This document shows, piece after piece, positions 21,344-27,462 of a stretch of 64,000 nt of DNA (its first letter is position 1; every line of letters begins with the position of its first letter). The stretch is taken from positions 62,001 to 126,000 of the forward strand of contig JAFGSY010000030.1 of the NCBI GenBank assembly GCA_016934315.1, written 5' to 3'. Made by a program: the position numbers and the translations under genes. This stretch comes from Candidatus Anaeroferrophillus wilburensis. Its GTDB lineage: Bacteria; Desulfobacterota; Anaeroferrophillalia; Anaeroferrophillales; Anaeroferrophillaceae. Below the pieces are notes generated by a model. The model was not told where the DNA came from. It saw only the letters and a list, made by a program, of their open reading frames with translations, and did no database searches.

Positions 21344-21372
21344 TTGACATGGCAGTCAGTTTGGGTTACTAG
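21344..21372 (+). promoter_or_regulatory. nikK: Probable promoter of the nickel transporter operon
   Basis: TTGACA (21344-21349), a 17-base spacer and TACTAG (21367-21372) give a perfect -35 box and a weaker -10. The expected start near 21379 would give a leader of about 135 bases. I looked for a NikR-type operator (GTATGA-like arms) around it and saw none. Confidence 0.6.
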
Positions 21373-21383
21373 TGCGAAAAATC

Positions 21384-21498
21384 ACGGGGAGAACCCCGTA
21401 ATCTGAAAAGATACTCTTTTCCAACATCATTTTTGCCGGAAAAATACCACGAAGGTACGGGGACCATACAGGTTCTTACCATTCGTGGTTTTTTTTTG
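21384..21498 (+). promoter_or_regulatory. Structured leader with terminator: candidate attenuator or riboswitch
   Basis: Four hairpins follow one another. P1: ACGGGG (21384-21389) with CCCCGT (21394-21399), loop AGAA. P2: GAAAAGA (21405-21411) with TCTTTTC (21415-21421). P3: ATTTTT (21429-21434) with AAAAAT (21440-21445). P4: 12 base pairs, 21446-21457 with 21477-21489 and one bulged A, followed by eight T (21490-21497), an intrinsic terminator. TACGGGG in the P4 region (21456-21462) can pair with CCCCGTA (21394-21400) of P1. P1 and this longer-range pair therefore exclude one another. The SD sequence AAAGGAGG lies after the T run, so control would be at transcription termination. The pairings are read from the sequence; regulation is inferred. 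Confidence 0.65.
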
Positions 21499-21513
21499 CC
21501 AAAGGAGGAACAG

Positions 21514-22293
21514 ATGAAAAAGATGACAACCATTCTTCTTTCGACCACCATTGTTTTGTTTACGGCCAGCATCTGCCTGGCCCATTTCGGCATGGTCATT
21601 CCCACAGATTCAATGGTTATGCAGGAAGACTTTCGGACAATTACGTTGACGCTCTCTTTTTCCCACCCATTTGAAGGCCAGGGGATGGAACTGGAGATGC
21701 CAAAAAAATTTACCCTTGCCACCCATGGCAAAACGTATGATCTTACCACCACGCTGACCAGTACCAAAGTATGGGATCATACCGCCTGGAAAACCGATTA
21801 CCAGATCAAGCGACCCGGCATCTATCAGTTCTGCCTTGAACCACAGCCCTATTGGGAGCCGGCTGAAGACTGCTTCATTATCCATTACACCAAAACCGTG
21901 GTCGCCGCCTTTGGCGATGATGAGGGCTGGGATGCGGAACTTGGCCTGAAAACAGAGATCGTCCCGTTGAGCAAACCGTTTGGCCTCTACACCGGCAATA
22001 TTTTTCAGGGAATTGTCAAAATGGACGGCAAACCGGTTCCCTACGCCGAAGTTGAAATCGAATTTTACAACCAGGATGGCAAAGCCCTTGCCCCCAGTGA
22101 CTATATGGTTACCCAGACCATCAAAGCTGACCAGAACGGCGTTTTCACCTATGCGGTTCCCCGGGCCGGCTGGTGGGGTTTTGCGGCATTGAATACGGCG
22201 GCCGAGACATTGGTGCATGATGGGCAGGAAAAAGCCATCGAACTGGGTGCCGTTATCTGGGTTGAATTCCATGACTGGCAGGAAAAGCCATGA
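21514..22293 (+). CDS. nikK: NikK-type periplasmic component of nickel ECF transporter (DUF4198)
   Basis: A 259-residue exported protein of the DUF4198 family that accompanies nickel ECF transporters of the nikKMLQO type in deltaproteobacteria. A signal peptide (KMTTILLSTTIVLFTASICL then Ala) should be cut before His-Phe-Gly-Met, placing His at the mature N-terminus. Such an amino-terminal His can bind metal; this is inference. The rest is beta-rich (FTLATHGKTYDL, YQIKRPGIYQF). ATG 21514 has an AAAGGAGG site; the in-frame reading from 21433 would begin inside the terminator and is rejected. It is the first gene of the operon. Confidence 0.8.
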   Translation: MKKMTTILLSTTIVLFTASICLAHFGMVIPTDSMVMQEDFRTITLTLSFSHPFEGQGMELEMPKKFTLATHGKTYDLTTTLTSTKVWDHTAWKTDYQIKRPGIYQFCLEPQPYWEPAEDCFIIHYTKTVVAAFGDDEGWDAELGLKTEIVPLSKPFGLYTGNIFQGIVKMDGKPVPYAEVEIEFYNQDGKALAPSDYMVTQTIKADQNGVFTYAVPRAGWWGFAALNTAAETLVHDGQEKAIELGAVIWVEFHDWQEKP

Positions 22294-22381: not shown

Positions 22382-22999
22382 ATGCATATTTCCGAAGGTG
22401 TTCTCTCTGGACCGGTACTGATTTCCGGCATGGCCATAGCGGCCGCTGGAACGGCAATCGGCATCAAGAAGCTAGACCTCGAACATATTGCGCGGGCCGG
22501 CGTTTTGTCGGCAGCCTTCTTTGTTGCCTCCCTGATTCATGTGCCGGTTGGTCCGGCCAGCGTTCACCTGATTCTTAACGGCATCATCGGTCTGCTGCTG
22601 GGGTGGGGGGCATTTCCGACCATTATGGTGGCGCTACTGCTCCAGGTGGTTTTTTTCCAGTTCGGCGGCCTGACAACCCTTGGGGTTAATACGGTGATCA
22701 TGGCTCTGCCGGCGGTTGTCTGCTACTACCTCTTCACCCCCCTGATCATGAGAAGACCGGCAATTGCCCTGCCAGCTGCTTTTTTCTGCGGTTTTCTGGC
22801 AGTTTTTTTCAGTGCCCTGTTGCTGGGGATCAGTCTCATGTTTACCGAAGAAAACTTTTTCGAAGTGGCTGTCCTGGCAATCTCTGCTCATCTACCGGTG
22901 ATGGTCATTGAAGGAATCATCACTGTTTTCTGCCTCAATTTTTTGAAAAAAGTCAGCCCTGAACTGCTGTCGGTCAGCAGCTCGGGAGATCGGATGTAG
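22382..22999 (+). CDS. nikM: Nickel ECF transporter substrate-binding membrane protein NikM/CbiM
   Basis: The S component of the ECF transporter: it binds the metal in the membrane. The N-terminus MHISEG is the hallmark of CbiM/NikM, in which the amino group, His 2 and a further His bind nickel or cobalt. His 53 and His 62 in LIHVPVGPASVHL are candidates for the remaining ligands. The protein has six or so membrane helices. ATG 22382 must be the real start because His 2 is essential; reading from 22217 would add 55 residues of unrelated sequence. Nickel rather than cobalt is inferred from the presence of NikK and NikL. Confidence 0.87.
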   Translation: MHISEGVLSGPVLISGMAIAAAGTAIGIKKLDLEHIARAGVLSAAFFVASLIHVPVGPASVHLILNGIIGLLLGWGAFPTIMVALLLQVVFFQFGGLTTLGVNTVIMALPAVVCYYLFTPLIMRRPAIALPAAFFCGFLAVFFSALLLGISLMFTEENFFEVAVLAISAHLPVMVIEGIITVFCLNFLKKVSPELLSVSSSGDRM

Positions 23000-23001
23000 T
23001 C

Positions 23002-23634
23002 ATGGATAGCCGCTGCCTCAGAATGTTGGCAATACCGATCTTCGTCCTCCTTTTTTTCGGAACGGCCGAAGCCCATAAGGTGATGGTTTTTGCCTGGATT
23101 GAAGGCAACACCATCCATACGGAAAGTAAATTCAGCGGCGGTAAGCTGGTCAAGGAGGGCAAGGTGGAGGTATTTGATGCCGTTGGCTCTCTGCTCTTGA
23201 CCGGGACCACCGATGATCAGGGAGAGTTTTCCTTTCCCCTGAACAATCTCGGCCCGCTCTCCATTGTTCTGACCGCCGGCATGGGACACCAGGGAAGCTG
23301 GACAATCAGCCGGGAAGAGATCAGCGATGCCGGTTTTTCAGCGCCATCCCCGGCTGCCGCCGCTGCCAACCATCAGGAAAGACCGCAGCTTCAGACAGCA
23401 GACGTACGAAAATCACTGCCAAACCCGGCCGGGGAACCGATTTCCTGCAGCCAGGAGGAGGTTATTCGACAGGCGGTAGAAAAAGCACTGGATAAAAAGC
23501 TGCAGCCGATTCTCAAACAGCTGGCTGCAGCCCAGGAAAAGGGTCCGACGTTCACCGACATCGTCGGCGGAATCGGCTACATTGTCGGCCTCGTTGGCCT
23601 GGTCGCCTATCTCCAGGCGCGAAAAAAATCATGA
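23002..23634 (+). CDS. nikL: NikL-type accessory component of nickel transporter
   Basis: A 210-residue membrane-anchored extracytoplasmic protein. The signal-like N-terminus (LAIPIFVLLFFGTAEA) is followed by His-Lys-Val-Met, so cleavage would place His first, as in NikK. A beta-sandwich (VEVFDAVGSLLLTGTTDDQG) of the carboxypeptidase-regulatory type follows. A variable Ala/Pro linker and a helix lead to one C-terminal membrane helix (GGIGYIVGLVGLVAYLQ). This occupies the place of CbiN in cobalt systems. It begins two bases after nikM and overlaps nikQ by ATGA. NikL assignment rests on gene order and architecture. Confidence 0.75.
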   Translation: MDSRCLRMLAIPIFVLLFFGTAEAHKVMVFAWIEGNTIHTESKFSGGKLVKEGKVEVFDAVGSLLLTGTTDDQGEFSFPLNNLGPLSIVLTAGMGHQGSWTISREEISDAGFSAPSPAAAAANHQERPQLQTADVRKSLPNPAGEPISCSQEEVIRQAVEKALDKKLQPILKQLAAAQEKGPTFTDIVGGIGYIVGLVGLVAYLQARKKS

Positions 23635-24401
23635 TCCAAGAGCCCTTTGCCACCGGCAATTCTCTGATTCACCGCCTCGATCCGCGGGCAAGGGTCGTTG
23701 CAGCCAGCGCATTTTCTTTCACCCTGGCCCTGTCTGCCGGCCTCTATACGCTGCTTTCGGGATTACTGATTTCCCTGAGTCTGGTCCTGCTGGCCCGCCT
23801 CGATCTTTATAAAGTGTTCCAGCGGCTAACGGTGGTCATGGGTTTTCTGCTGCTACTCTGGTTCATTCTCCCCTGGAGTTATGGCGGACAAACGTTGATC
23901 ACTATCGGGCCGCTGGCCATCAGCCGACCTGGCGTGGCGTTAAGCATCCAGATCAGCCTCAAATCCACAGCTATCCTGCTGGCCCTCATTGCCTTGATCG
24001 GCACCATGACCACAGCCCACCTGGGACAAGCCTTGAACCGGCTGCGGCTGCCGGATAAAATTGTCTACCTTATCTTGCTGACCTATCGTTATATTTTTGT
24101 CATAGAACATGAGTATCAACGGCTGCTCAGGGCGGCCCGTATACGAAATTTCAAGCCGGGAACTAATCTGCAGACCTACCGGACCTATGCCTATCTCATG
24201 GGGATGTTGTTTGTCCGGGCGGCCGAACGGGCAACCCGGGTCCACCAGGCGATGGTATGCCGGGGCTTTGGGGGAAAATTCCACTCGCTGGAAGAGTTTA
24301 AGGGAACCCGCCGGGACTGGATTTTTACCGGGCTGATGGTTGTCATTGTGGGCTCACTGATTGTCATCGAATGGCGGGTTAAACGCTGTTTCACCGGGTA
24401 G
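23631..24401 (+). CDS. nikQ: ECF transporter transmembrane protein NikQ/CbiQ
   Basis: The T component that couples the ATPase to the substrate-binding protein. It has a CbiQ N-terminus (NSLIHRLDPRARVV), five or more membrane helices, and the two cytoplasmic coupling motifs: RAARIRNF at about residue 164 and AMVCRGFGG near 206. Length 256 aa is usual. The start overlaps nikL by four bases. Identification as CbiQ-family is firm, while the metal is inferred from the operon. Confidence 0.88.
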   Translation: MIQEPFATGNSLIHRLDPRARVVAASAFSFTLALSAGLYTLLSGLLISLSLVLLARLDLYKVFQRLTVVMGFLLLLWFILPWSYGGQTLITIGPLAISRPGVALSIQISLKSTAILLALIALIGTMTTAHLGQALNRLRLPDKIVYLILLTYRYIFVIEHEYQRLLRAARIRNFKPGTNLQTYRTYAYLMGMLFVRAAERATRVHQAMVCRGFGGKFHSLEEFKGTRRDWIFTGLMVVIVGSLIVIEWRVKRCFTG

Positions 24402-24420: not shown

Positions 24421-25146
24421 ATGGTCCAGATACCACTCATTAATCTTAAGCAGATTGCTTTCAGCTATCCCGGCCAGCCGCCAATCTTCAAGGATCTGGA
24501 ACTGCTGCTTGGTCCGGGAGAGCGGATTGGTCTGTCCGCCCCCAACGGCAGCGGCAAAACCACCTTGTTCCACCTGATTATGGGCTTGCTGCAGCCGACC
24601 TCCGGCACCATTGAAATTTTCGGCAAGCACATTGTCACGGGAGACGATTTTTTCACCGTCCGGCGAAAAATCGGCCTGCTGTTTCAGGATGCCGATGATC
24701 AGCTGTTCAGCCCTACGGTGATCGAAGATGTGGCCTTTGGTCCATTGAATCTTGGCCATTCTCCGGAAGCCGCCCGGGAGATATCTTTGCGTACCCTGAA
24801 ATTTCTTGGCTTGGAAAAATTAGCTGACCGGGTAACTTTTAAGCTCTCAGGCGGCGAAAAAAAATTGGTTTCACTGGCCACTGTACTGGCTATGGAGCCG
24901 GAGGTCCTGCTCCTTGATGAGCCCACATCCGGTCTTGACAGGGATACCAAAAGCAGACTGATTGACATCTTAAACGATCTGGCTCTCCCGTCGATCATCA
25001 TTTCCCATGAGTTTGACTTCCTCAGTTCCACCGTCGAACATATCTATACGATGGATGGCGGCAGAATTCTTTTTGATGAAGAGCTCCACATCCACCATCA
25101 TGAGCATGCACATCGCCTGGGGAAACAACCCCACAAACATATTTGA
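24421..25146 (+). CDS. nikO: ECF transporter ATPase NikO/CbiO with His-rich tail
   Basis: The ATP-hydrolysing subunit. Walker A NGSGKTT at 42-48, Q-loop LLFQDADDQLFSPT, signature LSGGEKK, Walker B VLLLDEPTSGLD, switch His in IISHEFDF are all present. The last 20 residues (HIHHHEHAHRLGKQPHKHI) contain nine His and are not needed for the ATPase fold; they could bind nickel. ATG 24421 has GGGAAG upstream; the longer frame from 24361 runs into nikQ. The operon ends here; a short GGCGG/CCGCC hairpin follows but lacks a T run. Confidence 0.9.
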   Translation: MVQIPLINLKQIAFSYPGQPPIFKDLELLLGPGERIGLSAPNGSGKTTLFHLIMGLLQPTSGTIEIFGKHIVTGDDFFTVRRKIGLLFQDADDQLFSPTVIEDVAFGPLNLGHSPEAAREISLRTLKFLGLEKLADRVTFKLSGGEKKLVSLATVLAMEPEVLLLDEPTSGLDRDTKSRLIDILNDLALPSIIISHEFDFLSSTVEHIYTMDGGRILFDEELHIHHHEHAHRLGKQPHKHI

Positions 25147-25213: not shown

Positions 25214-26425
25214 TCAACCAGTGCAGTCAGCGTCGGCTGGACCGTGTAATTCTGCCTTTATGCGGGTTAAAGCAGTCTCGGCATCCTTGTCCGCAATCAC
25301 CAGAATTTCAGTGTCGGCATTACCCAGCACAAACCCCGGTCCTTTGCCGGCCAGATCATGGCGTACAAGAATGATTTCCAGCCCCTGCTCCAGCAGCCAG
25401 TTGGCCACTTTGATGCCTTTGCCTTTTTCTTCGAGAATATAAGGATTCTGCAGGATGGTATCGGCGACCACCGAACCATCCAGGGGAAGGAAGGTAGTAA
25501 GCCGGAAAAATGGGGCCTCACCAAAATGTTCCGAAATCAGCTGGCGGTTCTCTTCAAGAGGAACACCAAGGATGAGATAATCTTTGTGCCAGGGCTGATA
25601 ATGAATAATGACATGATCCACATGTGCCAGTTCCATCATTATCCGCTGTTTGATCTCTTCTGAGACCCTGTACCCACGTTCCAGTTCCTTAACACGCAAA
25701 ACCAGATCCAGCTCGACAAACTTATAGCGGCCGGCGTTGCGGGCTCGAAGTTCGTTAACCTTTATGACCCTTGGGTCAGCGATGGCAATCTCGCGGACCC
25801 GATTCATGCTGTCGTGGTCGAGGGAGGCATCAAGCAAAACCCTTATGGCATCAAGGAGGATCAGAAATGCCGCCCGGGCAATGAAGGCAACGACAATGAG
25901 GGCGGCATAGCGATCGACGGCAAAGCCGGCGATACTGCCAAGCAGAGAGGTCAGAATGACCATTGACGAGAGCATATCGCTCCAGATGTGCCGGGCATCG
26001 GCGACCAGACTGGGGGATCCAGTTTCCAGACCTTTTTTCAGTTCATAACGGGAAAAAAGCCAGGTAATCAGAATGGTAGCGGTAATACCGGCGGCGGCAA
26101 GGGGGATATTGGCTGCCAGCAAGCGGGGAGGAGCGGTGAAGACTTCCAAGACTATTTCATAACCGGCAAAAAATATCAAAAAAGAGGTTGCCAGGGCAAC
26201 CAGGTTTTCCACCTTGTATAAACCATAGGGAAAGCTGCGGCTGGAGCGCTTGGAAATCTTGATGCCGAGCAGAATGATGCTGGATGATGCCACATCGGCA
26301 AGTGAATGGATGGCGTCAGCCTTGATCGCCAGGCTGCCTGAAGCATAAACCAGCAAAATCTTGATGCCCACCAGCAGAACGTTGGTCAGAATTGAATAAA
26401 CGGCGGTTTTTTCTGAACTTTCCAT
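25214..26425 (-). CDS. CDF-family metal exporter fused to NifX-like domain
   Basis: Residues 1-200 form a cation diffusion facilitator with six membrane helices. The metal-site motifs are His 40 and Asp 44 in DAIHSLAD (second helix) and HIWSD in the fifth. A CDF cytoplasmic domain reaches about residue 290. The last 115 residues (PLEENRQLISEHFGEAPFFR, later FVLGNADTEILVI) match the NifX/NafY-type dinitrogenase cofactor-binding fold. CDF-NifX fusions exist in databases but are poorly described. ATG 26425 is five bases after the exporter gene stop. The exported metal (Fe, Mn or Zn) cannot be told. Confidence 0.82.
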   Translation of the reverse strand: MESSEKTAVYSILTNVLLVGIKILLVYASGSLAIKADAIHSLADVASSSIILLGIKISKRSSRSFPYGLYKVENLVALATSFLIFFAGYEIVLEVFTAPPRLLAANIPLAAAGITATILITWLFSRYELKKGLETGSPSLVADARHIWSDMLSSMVILTSLLGSIAGFAVDRYAALIVVAFIARAAFLILLDAIRVLLDASLDHDSMNRVREIAIADPRVIKVNELRARNAGRYKFVELDLVLRVKELERGYRVSEEIKQRIMMELAHVDHVIIHYQPWHKDYLILGVPLEENRQLISEHFGEAPFFRLTTFLPLDGSVVADTILQNPYILEEKGKGIKVANWLLEQGLEIILVRHDLAGKGPGFVLGNADTEILVIADKDAETALTRIKAELHGPADADCTG

Positions 26426-26430
26426 AGGGA

Positions 26431-27462
26431 TTACCAGCCAATGGCATAACCGATCAGACCGACAAGGAAACCGATAAGGCAATTAATGCCCTTAATTCGA
26501 AAAAAATCTAGGCGGGAATGGGCCAGCAACGGCAGCATGCCGTGACCATCCTGGACGATTGAGTTGGCAAGAAGAATACTGAAAGGGATTGCCCCCTGAC
26601 TGTAGAGGGTGAGAAAAATCAGGTGGGGTCCCGATTCGGGGACCAGTCCCACAAGGCAGGCGGCAAGCACCAGGAGAAGCTGATTTTCCTGCATCCAGCC
26701 GGCAAGATGAAGGTGATCAATCAGCAGATGCATGCCCAGCAGGGCGCCGAAAGTCCACAGGAACACCCGTGGCACATGGACTATTGCCACATGCTGCCAC
26801 AGATGTTCTTCAAGGAAATGATCAGGAACGGTGGCGACAATAAACAGTCCGAGATTTGCGGTAATCAGCAGGGTTGTTTTAATCCAGTTCCAGACCGGCG
26901 GGCCCAGCTGCCCACTGAGCAGTCCGAAATCAAAGAGAAGCAGAGTCAAAATCAGGACGCCGCGGGCGAGAGTACAATGCCGCCACTGATTCAGTATCTG
27001 GCCGGAAGGAAAACAGTGACAGGCATCCTCTTCATGGAGGGGGAACTGATGACCTGCGACATGCTCACCGGTAGTCCTGGCGCTGACCAGCCAATCGGTC
27101 AGAATACCGGCGGCAGCACCGATCAACATCAACAGAAGGAAAATACGAATGGCTGTCCGGGGAATCATCGACAGCATGACAAAGGACTCATCACCGCTGG
27201 TGGCAACCATTGCCGCCACCACCGCCCCCAGGGAAACCACTTGGTGAGAATAGAGCGAAACAACCGCGAAGGCCCCCAGACATCCCGGAGTCGCTCCCAG
27301 ACATGATGCCAGCAGATACTGCTTCCACCGGCTGCCCCGCAGGCCCTGCTGCCATACTCCGGAGGTCAGGACGTTGAGATATTCAATTACCAGCATCATG
27401 ACAAAGACAAAGCCGGTAATCATCAAGGCATGGGTCAGGCTTTCACGAACGAGAGCAATCAT
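26431..27462 (-). CDS. Putative manganese / heavy-metal exporter (10-TM, ArsP_2-like)
   Basis: A 343-residue membrane protein with about ten helices in two repeats (CLGATPGCLGAFAVV and LVGLVPESGPHLIFL repeat the same Gly-Pro pattern). This arrangement matches the putative manganese transporter or ArsP_2 family. A central cytoplasmic loop has many His, Glu and Cys (GEHVAGHQFPLHEEDACHCF), which could sense or bind metal. It is followed by the CDF-NifX gene. A perfect sigma-70 promoter lies upstream. Substrate is inferred only from the family name and context. Confidence 0.72.
   Translation of the reverse strand: MIALVRESLTHALMITGFVFVMMLVIEYLNVLTSGVWQQGLRGSRWKQYLLASCLGATPGCLGAFAVVSLYSHQVVSLGAVVAAMVATSGDESFVMLSMIPRTAIRIFLLLMLIGAAAGILTDWLVSARTTGEHVAGHQFPLHEEDACHCFPSGQILNQWRHCTLARGVLILTLLLFDFGLLSGQLGPPVWNWIKTTLLITANLGLFIVATVPDHFLEEHLWQHVAIVHVPRVFLWTFGALLGMHLLIDHLHLAGWMQENQLLLVLAACLVGLVPESGPHLIFLTLYSQGAIPFSILLANSIVQDGHGMLPLLAHSRLDFFRIKGINCLIGFLVGLIGYAIGW

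Follow-up and report, generated by a model that had tools for sequence, protein, structure and literature searches.

A predicted transcription attenuator in the leader of a nickel-uptake operon, with DUF3842 as its candidate reader

The nikKMLQO operon of Candidatus Anaeroferrophillus wilburensis raises the question of how nickel uptake is controlled in a genome in which no NikR (PF08753) was found. In delta-proteobacteria, the NikR regulon is governed by a DNA operator, GTGTTAC-N13/14-GTAACAC (PMC545781). A search for exact copies of this operator found none in the window, the whole 64,000-nucleotide stretch of DNA that was analysed. A sequence-only reading of the window had singled out the leader of nikK (Table 1) as a metal-sensing RNA or a protein-controlled attenuator for nickel uptake. 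The observation was correct, and larger than reported. The interpretation was partly supported: attenuation was borne out by comparison with other leaders and, of the two options, control by a protein is the better.

Competing hairpins in the nikK leader

The promoter pair and the hairpins described in the sequence-only reading were all recovered. TTGACA and TACTAG are separated by a 17-nt spacer; a consensus scan missed this promoter because its -10 element does not have the T that the scan demands. The ATTGACAT of the promoter region was retained in all three close homologous leaders, and the RNA probably starts at about position 21379. The strong terminator has 12 pairs followed by eight T (21490-21497) and lies 16 bases 5' of the nikK ATG at 21514. 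The predicted folding energy of the whole leader was -54.1 kcal/mol, compared with -39.1 kcal/mol in shuffled sequences (z=-4.2, 0/200). An ATTTTT...AAAAAT pairing (21429-21446) was also seen 5' of P2, and comparable U-rich and A-rich stretches occur in related nikK leaders.

Table 1. Features of the nikK leader and the nik operon (window positions; the name nikK follows PMC545781)
Feature	Position	Strand	Details
Leader of nikK	21344-21514	+	171 nt
Sigma-70-type promoter, TTGACA-N17-TACTAG	21344..21372	+	TTGACA 21344-21349, TACTAG 21367-21372
P1, small hairpin ACGGGG-AGAA-CCCCGT, NGAA-type loop	21384..21399	+	-9.5 kcal/mol
P2, small hairpin TACC-ACGAA-GGTA, proposed antiterminator	21445..21457	+	-2.7 kcal/mol; flanking-pair covariation
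Intrinsic terminator	21446..21497	+	-23.0 kcal/mol, z=-6.9; R1 model match 48.2 bits
Terminator 5' arm, ACCACGAA and GGTA	21446-21453 and 21454-21457	+	
Terminator 3' arm, TACC and TTCGTGGT	21477-21480 and 21482-21489	+	T run to 21497
P3, hairpin within the terminator loop	21461..21475	+	own loop ATACA
Ribosome-binding site, AAGGAGGA	21502..21509	+	
nikK, DUF4198, predicted periplasmic component of nickel ECF transporter	21514..22293	+	PF10670 E=8e-61
nikM (CbiM family)	22382..22999	+	PF01891, NF004905
nikL	23002..23634	+	NF058648 NikL family
nikQ (CbiQ family)	23631..24401	+	PF02361, TIGR02454
nikO (CbiO-type ATPase)	24421..25146, start uncertain	+	PF00005, TIGR01166

The switch proposed in the sequence-only reading, in which the 3' arm CCCCGT pairs with either of two copies of ACGGGG, was not upheld. 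ACGGGGA does occur twice, at 21384-21390 and 21457-21463. The heptamer is unremarkable, with nine copies in the window where 7.6 are expected, and pairing with the second copy was absent from the three closest leaders. The longest complementarity between the P1 3' arm and the terminator loop was 7 nucleotides in the window, 3, 5 and 4 in those leaders and 4.3 on average in random sequence. The folding can switch, but through CC-ACGAA-GG, the core of P2, which overlaps the terminator 5' arm.

This second hairpin, with the consensus xCC-ANGAA-GGx, is conserved and mutually exclusive with the terminator. Related nikK leaders carry the same terminator hairpin, CCACGAAGG...TCGTGG[C/T]TTTTT. The motif pattern fixes CCACGAAGG, so that the conservation of these nine letters carries no weight on its own, and the CC and GG of P2, likewise set by the search pattern, were excluded from the covariation evidence. 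The pairs that flank P2, which are not terminator pairs, covaried in 62 double-changed cells compared with 20.2 in shuffles (0/500). Moreover, copies gathered without the fixed CCACGAAGG restriction had the variant loops ATGAA, AAGAA, AGGAA, ACGCA, ACGTA and ACGGA, each accompanied by a matching change in the terminator 3' arm. Both structures are therefore maintained. Since P1 and the terminator are predicted to be far more stable than P2 (Table 1), termination would be the default and P2 would need help to form. Thus a 5' leader was found to combine an intrinsic terminator with a conserved structure that excludes it, the general mark of transcription attenuators, and comparison of the sequences identifies the leader as one.

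The remaining hairpins share their loops. A P1-type hairpin, with the loop C-NGAA-G or C-ANGAA-G also seen in P2, was located upstream of the switch in 67 of 145 leaders (46%) among the matches listed, compared with 19 of 496 control regions (3.8%, p=8e-33), the controls being regions 5' of other genes at the same loci; shuffled sequences gave about two. The stem sequences were unrelated from one leader to the next. Again among the matches listed, 48 of the 145 leaders had P3, with the same loop type, within the terminator loop, compared with 1.1 in shuffles; its loop is often NGAA in the homologues and ATACA in the window. At the thresholds used, 54 of these 145 listed leaders had neither P1 nor P3. 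The linkers between the hairpins were very variable in length, and no junction and no long conserved aptamer were seen. Common loops on arbitrary stems suggest the mark of a protein-binding site.

A covariance search of the leader against Rfam, which the sequence-only reading had proposed together with a conservation check, produced no match at the gathering score, and what it listed at E<=10 was at the level of chance. In line with that reading, neither the NiCo riboswitch model nor the cobalamin riboswitch model (RF00174) matched the leader; the same search detected RF00174 in L076. The conservation check showed that the terminator hairpin and the P1 loop are kept in other leaders, and that the ACGGGG copy is not.

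Distribution of the motif and the genes behind it

The earliest clue that the element was not confined to nikK came from a search with the leader, which found a second site in the same genome, 79% identical, restricted to the terminator hairpin and located before a gene for an LbtU-type porin (G000:C13:125001-125056). A third copy (G000:C7:62966-63026) precedes a TonB-dependent receptor gene, and both genes are likely to serve nickel acquisition. Of 148 relatives, 27 carried the strict pattern, with 36 sites between them; a reversed control pattern gave none. A covariance model, R1, extended the matches to 48 of the 148 relatives; the E-values of this home-made model are rough, and almost all of the weaker matches that were inspected lay 5' of nickel-type genes, encoding TonB receptors, CbiM, NikL, DUF3842, a methyltransferase and a CooC-like ATPase. 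In other genomes, from Desulfobacterota, Nitrospirota and Bacillota, the motif was present on at least 120 contigs, some of these pattern matches (L079, L129, L152 and L153) probably being due to chance. Cultured carriers of the motif include Desulfatibacillum alkenivorans, Desulfotruncus arcticus and a Sporomusa.

Among the matches listed, the nearest downstream gene was on the strand of the motif in 102 of 110 cases, so the motif sites are 5' leaders. The 124 downstream proteins, among the matches listed, included DUF4198/NikK (25), TonB plug (16), CbiM/NikM (13), methyltransferase (5), FmdE (5), periplasmic binding (5), ExbB (3), TonB (3), FecCD (2) and DUF3842 (2) proteins, and further types in the same list were ECF components and nickel/peptide-type binding proteins. 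A search for recurrent regulators by clustering the open reading frames near the motif, with a 70-residue cut-off that left out CooT, returned transporters, TonB/ExbB parts and DUF3842. Many of the TonB receptors under the motif matched NCBIfam models whose names refer to U-containing, possibly selenocysteine, motif types, among them FCYXU, PCPU, CU and PUIUD. At L088, L162 and L165 the motif is legible on both strands (CCACGAAGG...CCTTCGTGG) and could therefore form a two-way terminator there. In the window, the nik operon is followed on the minus strand by convergent genes (25217-27462), whose products are a cation efflux protein of the CDF type, carrying a Nitro_FeMo-Co domain at its C terminus, and a 10-TM exporter of the ArsP_2 type.

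A literature search, which left subscription journals and preprints largely outside, found no published description of this element. On the evidence of its sequences, the attenuator is a class unrecorded so far that many anaerobic bacteria have 5' of nickel-related genes.

Candidate proteins that might read the leader

Five families were profiled across the genomes, namely DUF3842, CooT, NikR, ANTAR and acetyl-CoA synthase (ACS); with only a handful covered, a family outside this set could match the motif equally well. Many of the genomes counted are metagenome bins, and the Fisher tests take genomes as independent, an effect of kinship that the family-level counts lessen and do not remove.

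NikR and the motif exclude each other. NikR was encoded in none of the 27 strict-pattern genomes, compared with 62 of 121 others (p=6e-8), and with one vote per family it was found in 1 of 16 motif families and 26 of 45 others. Being absent from this genome and anticorrelated with the motif, NikR was rejected as the regulator here. The NikR regulon and the motif have nikKMLQO as a common target, and presumably a common signal, but NikR works on DNA and the element described here is an RNA leader.

ANTAR proteins such as EutV, NasR and AmiR read leaders with two hairpins whose hexanucleotide loops have A at position 1 and G at position 4 (PMC3369931). The likeness lies in two small hairpins, of which the second overlaps the terminator 5' arm, as it does here, in recognition through the loops, and in antitermination. 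However, the loops of the present motif have 4-5 nucleotides, NGAA or ANGAA, no hexaloops are present and the linker is usually much longer. Moreover, no ANTAR protein (PF03861) was found in this genome, which is 98% complete, nor in 19 of 25 motif genomes. With both the loops and the protein failing, ANTAR antitermination was excluded; by analogy, the leader would work like an ANTAR system without being a member.

DUF3842 (PF12953) was encoded in 43 of the 48 motif genomes and 17 of the 100 others (p=7e-18), and by family in 15 of 16 and 5 of 45 (p=3e-9). No motif was found in the 17 other genomes having DUF3842. Of the plausible motif genomes reached by the genome scan, mostly outside the phylum, 33 of the 36 among the matches listed encoded DUF3842, compared with none of the four genomes whose motif matches look like chance. 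In Bacillota, 19 of 20 motif genomes encoded it, against a Clostridia background of 52 of 147. ACS was considered as a confounder and rejected, since it was not associated with the motif (36/48 vs 64/100, p=0.2) and within the ACS genomes the tie to DUF3842 held (34/36 vs 14/64, p=3e-13). The association also survived control for CooT.

CooT was tested as a small protein that binds nickel. It was encoded in 47 of the 48 motif genomes and 47 of the 100 others, so that DUF3842 tracks the motif better, and none was found in about nine Bacillota motif genomes, about eight of which have DUF3842. CooT alone was accordingly rejected as the reader, and its gaps in Bacillota led us to prefer DUF3842.

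The two genes usually lie together, cooT directly 3' of that for DUF3842. In this genome the pair is at G000:C38:73918-74494, with no motif recognised upstream, and a second, lone cooT is at C45:43740-43922. Several other genomes have the motif 5' of DUF3842-cooT or of cooT, in orders such as motif-DUF3842-cooT-motif-nikM and motif-cooT. Among the matches listed for motif genomes in the genome scan, the motif preceded 2 of the 28 DUF3842 genes checked. Since most of these genes are without a motif of their own, the co-occurrence is not mere regulon membership. In a Peptococcaceae genome (L076:3043-4970), two cobalamin riboswitches lie 5' of a motif-DUF3842-cooT operon. A further link between CooT and nickel control was seen in a genome with NikR (L268, G046:C91), where cooT adjoins nikR.

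The CooT-like proteins belong to the PF10133 family and keep Cys2 in the homologues. In a fold search, a representative model matched 6FAN and 5N76, the next match being a weak one to RimM (E=0.033). Rhodospirillum rubrum CooT is dimeric, with a single Ni(II) bound through Cys2 at a Kd of about 9 nM, and its function was called unclear (PMC6006190). The papers found on this family (PDB 5N76, 6FAN; PMC6006190) give it an accessory role for CO dehydrogenase only and no RNA role. DUF3842 was named in no paper found by the literature search, from which subscription journals and preprints were largely absent, and no solved structure was present among its sequence relatives. Structure prediction gave DUF3842 a Rossmann-like fold at moderate confidence (pLDDT 78), and the stretches GGGIG, LGTNA, GENAI and PLPHL are conserved in the alignment. 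The fold search returned generic Rossmann and FtsZ folds, and no RNA-binding relative stood out; because the model matched FtsZ first (E=2e-4), DUF3842 may be a nucleotide-binding FtsZ/Rossmann-like protein.

Proposed mechanism and alternatives

From these comparisons we infer a protein reader, which would be DUF3842, alone or together with CooT; a signal, which would be nickel; and the direction in which the leader would respond. Left to itself, the leader RNA would form the strong terminator and transcription would end before nikK. A trans-acting protein would recognise hairpins with C-ANGAA-G or C-NGAA-G loops, P1 upstream and P2 formed from the terminator 5' arm, and with P2 held by the protein the terminator would be blocked and the nickel-uptake genes transcribed. 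As cells should take up nickel when it is in short supply, binding would be expected of the nickel-free protein, with nickel causing its release. DUF3842, encoded directly before CooT in most genomes, is the best candidate for this protein. On balance, we lean towards the view that the leader represents an unrecorded class of attenuators controlling a nickel regulon in the place of NikR through protein-dependent antitermination, with DUF3842 as the best candidate reader.

The same attenuator might be read by another protein, DUF3842 and CooT being merely co-inherited nickel proteins or targets. The motif stands before DUF3842-cooT in some genomes, so both can be targets, and the profile test was limited to the five families named above. 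However, DUF3842 nearly always accompanies the motif even though so few of its genes carry it, and the association withstands control for ACS and CooT, so we regard this explanation as unlikely. A metal riboswitch, with Ni(II), or Co(II), bound directly by the RNA and no need for a protein, would suit the nickel gene set, the mutually exclusive structures and the wide spread across phyla. NiCo (czcD) and cobalamin riboswitches are also metal- or cobalt-linked cis-regulatory RNAs, but the nikK leader is without a junction aptamer, and NiCo riboswitches control efflux genes, in contrast to the uptake genes found here. The loops of only 4-5 nucleotides, the arbitrary stems and the variable linkers also speak against a riboswitch; a ligand holding P2 would activate uptake, the wrong sign for the metal being taken up, and the tie to DUF3842 would be unexplained. 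We judge a metal riboswitch improbable.

The strength of the terminator and the conservation of its arm would be expected of an unregulated terminator kept before nickel genes as an insulator or copy-number damper. This is very improbable, given that the P2 flanks covary outside the terminator, that the P1 loops are conserved with no role in termination and that the motif and NikR are mutually exclusive. Inverted repeats 5' of nickel genes call to mind NikR operators (PMC545781), and the hairpins might be DNA sites for a transcription factor; with P1 stems that differ between leaders and have only the loop in common, a T run after P2 and the terminator, and an orientation fixed towards the gene, we give this hardly any credence.

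The preferred mechanism, antitermination by a protein, has a counterpart in PyrR attenuation, where termination is set by a protein of Rossmann-like nucleotide-binding fold that binds a conserved-loop hairpin in the RNA. PyrR differs from the system proposed here in its loop and its protein family, and its binding promotes termination. More tentatively, DUF3842, with CooT as a nickel-binding partner where present, could constitute a new class of nickel-responsive RNA-binding antiterminators that recognise tandem C-(A)NGAA-G loops and replace NikR in large parts of Desulfobacterota, Nitrospirota and Bacillota. If true, this would explain the control of nickel uptake in many anaerobes without NikR, and would provide a first testable role for DUF3842, a widespread companion protein, and for CooT. 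The regulon defined by the motif further predicts TonB receptors, porins, binding proteins and methyltransferases that would serve nickel acquisition.
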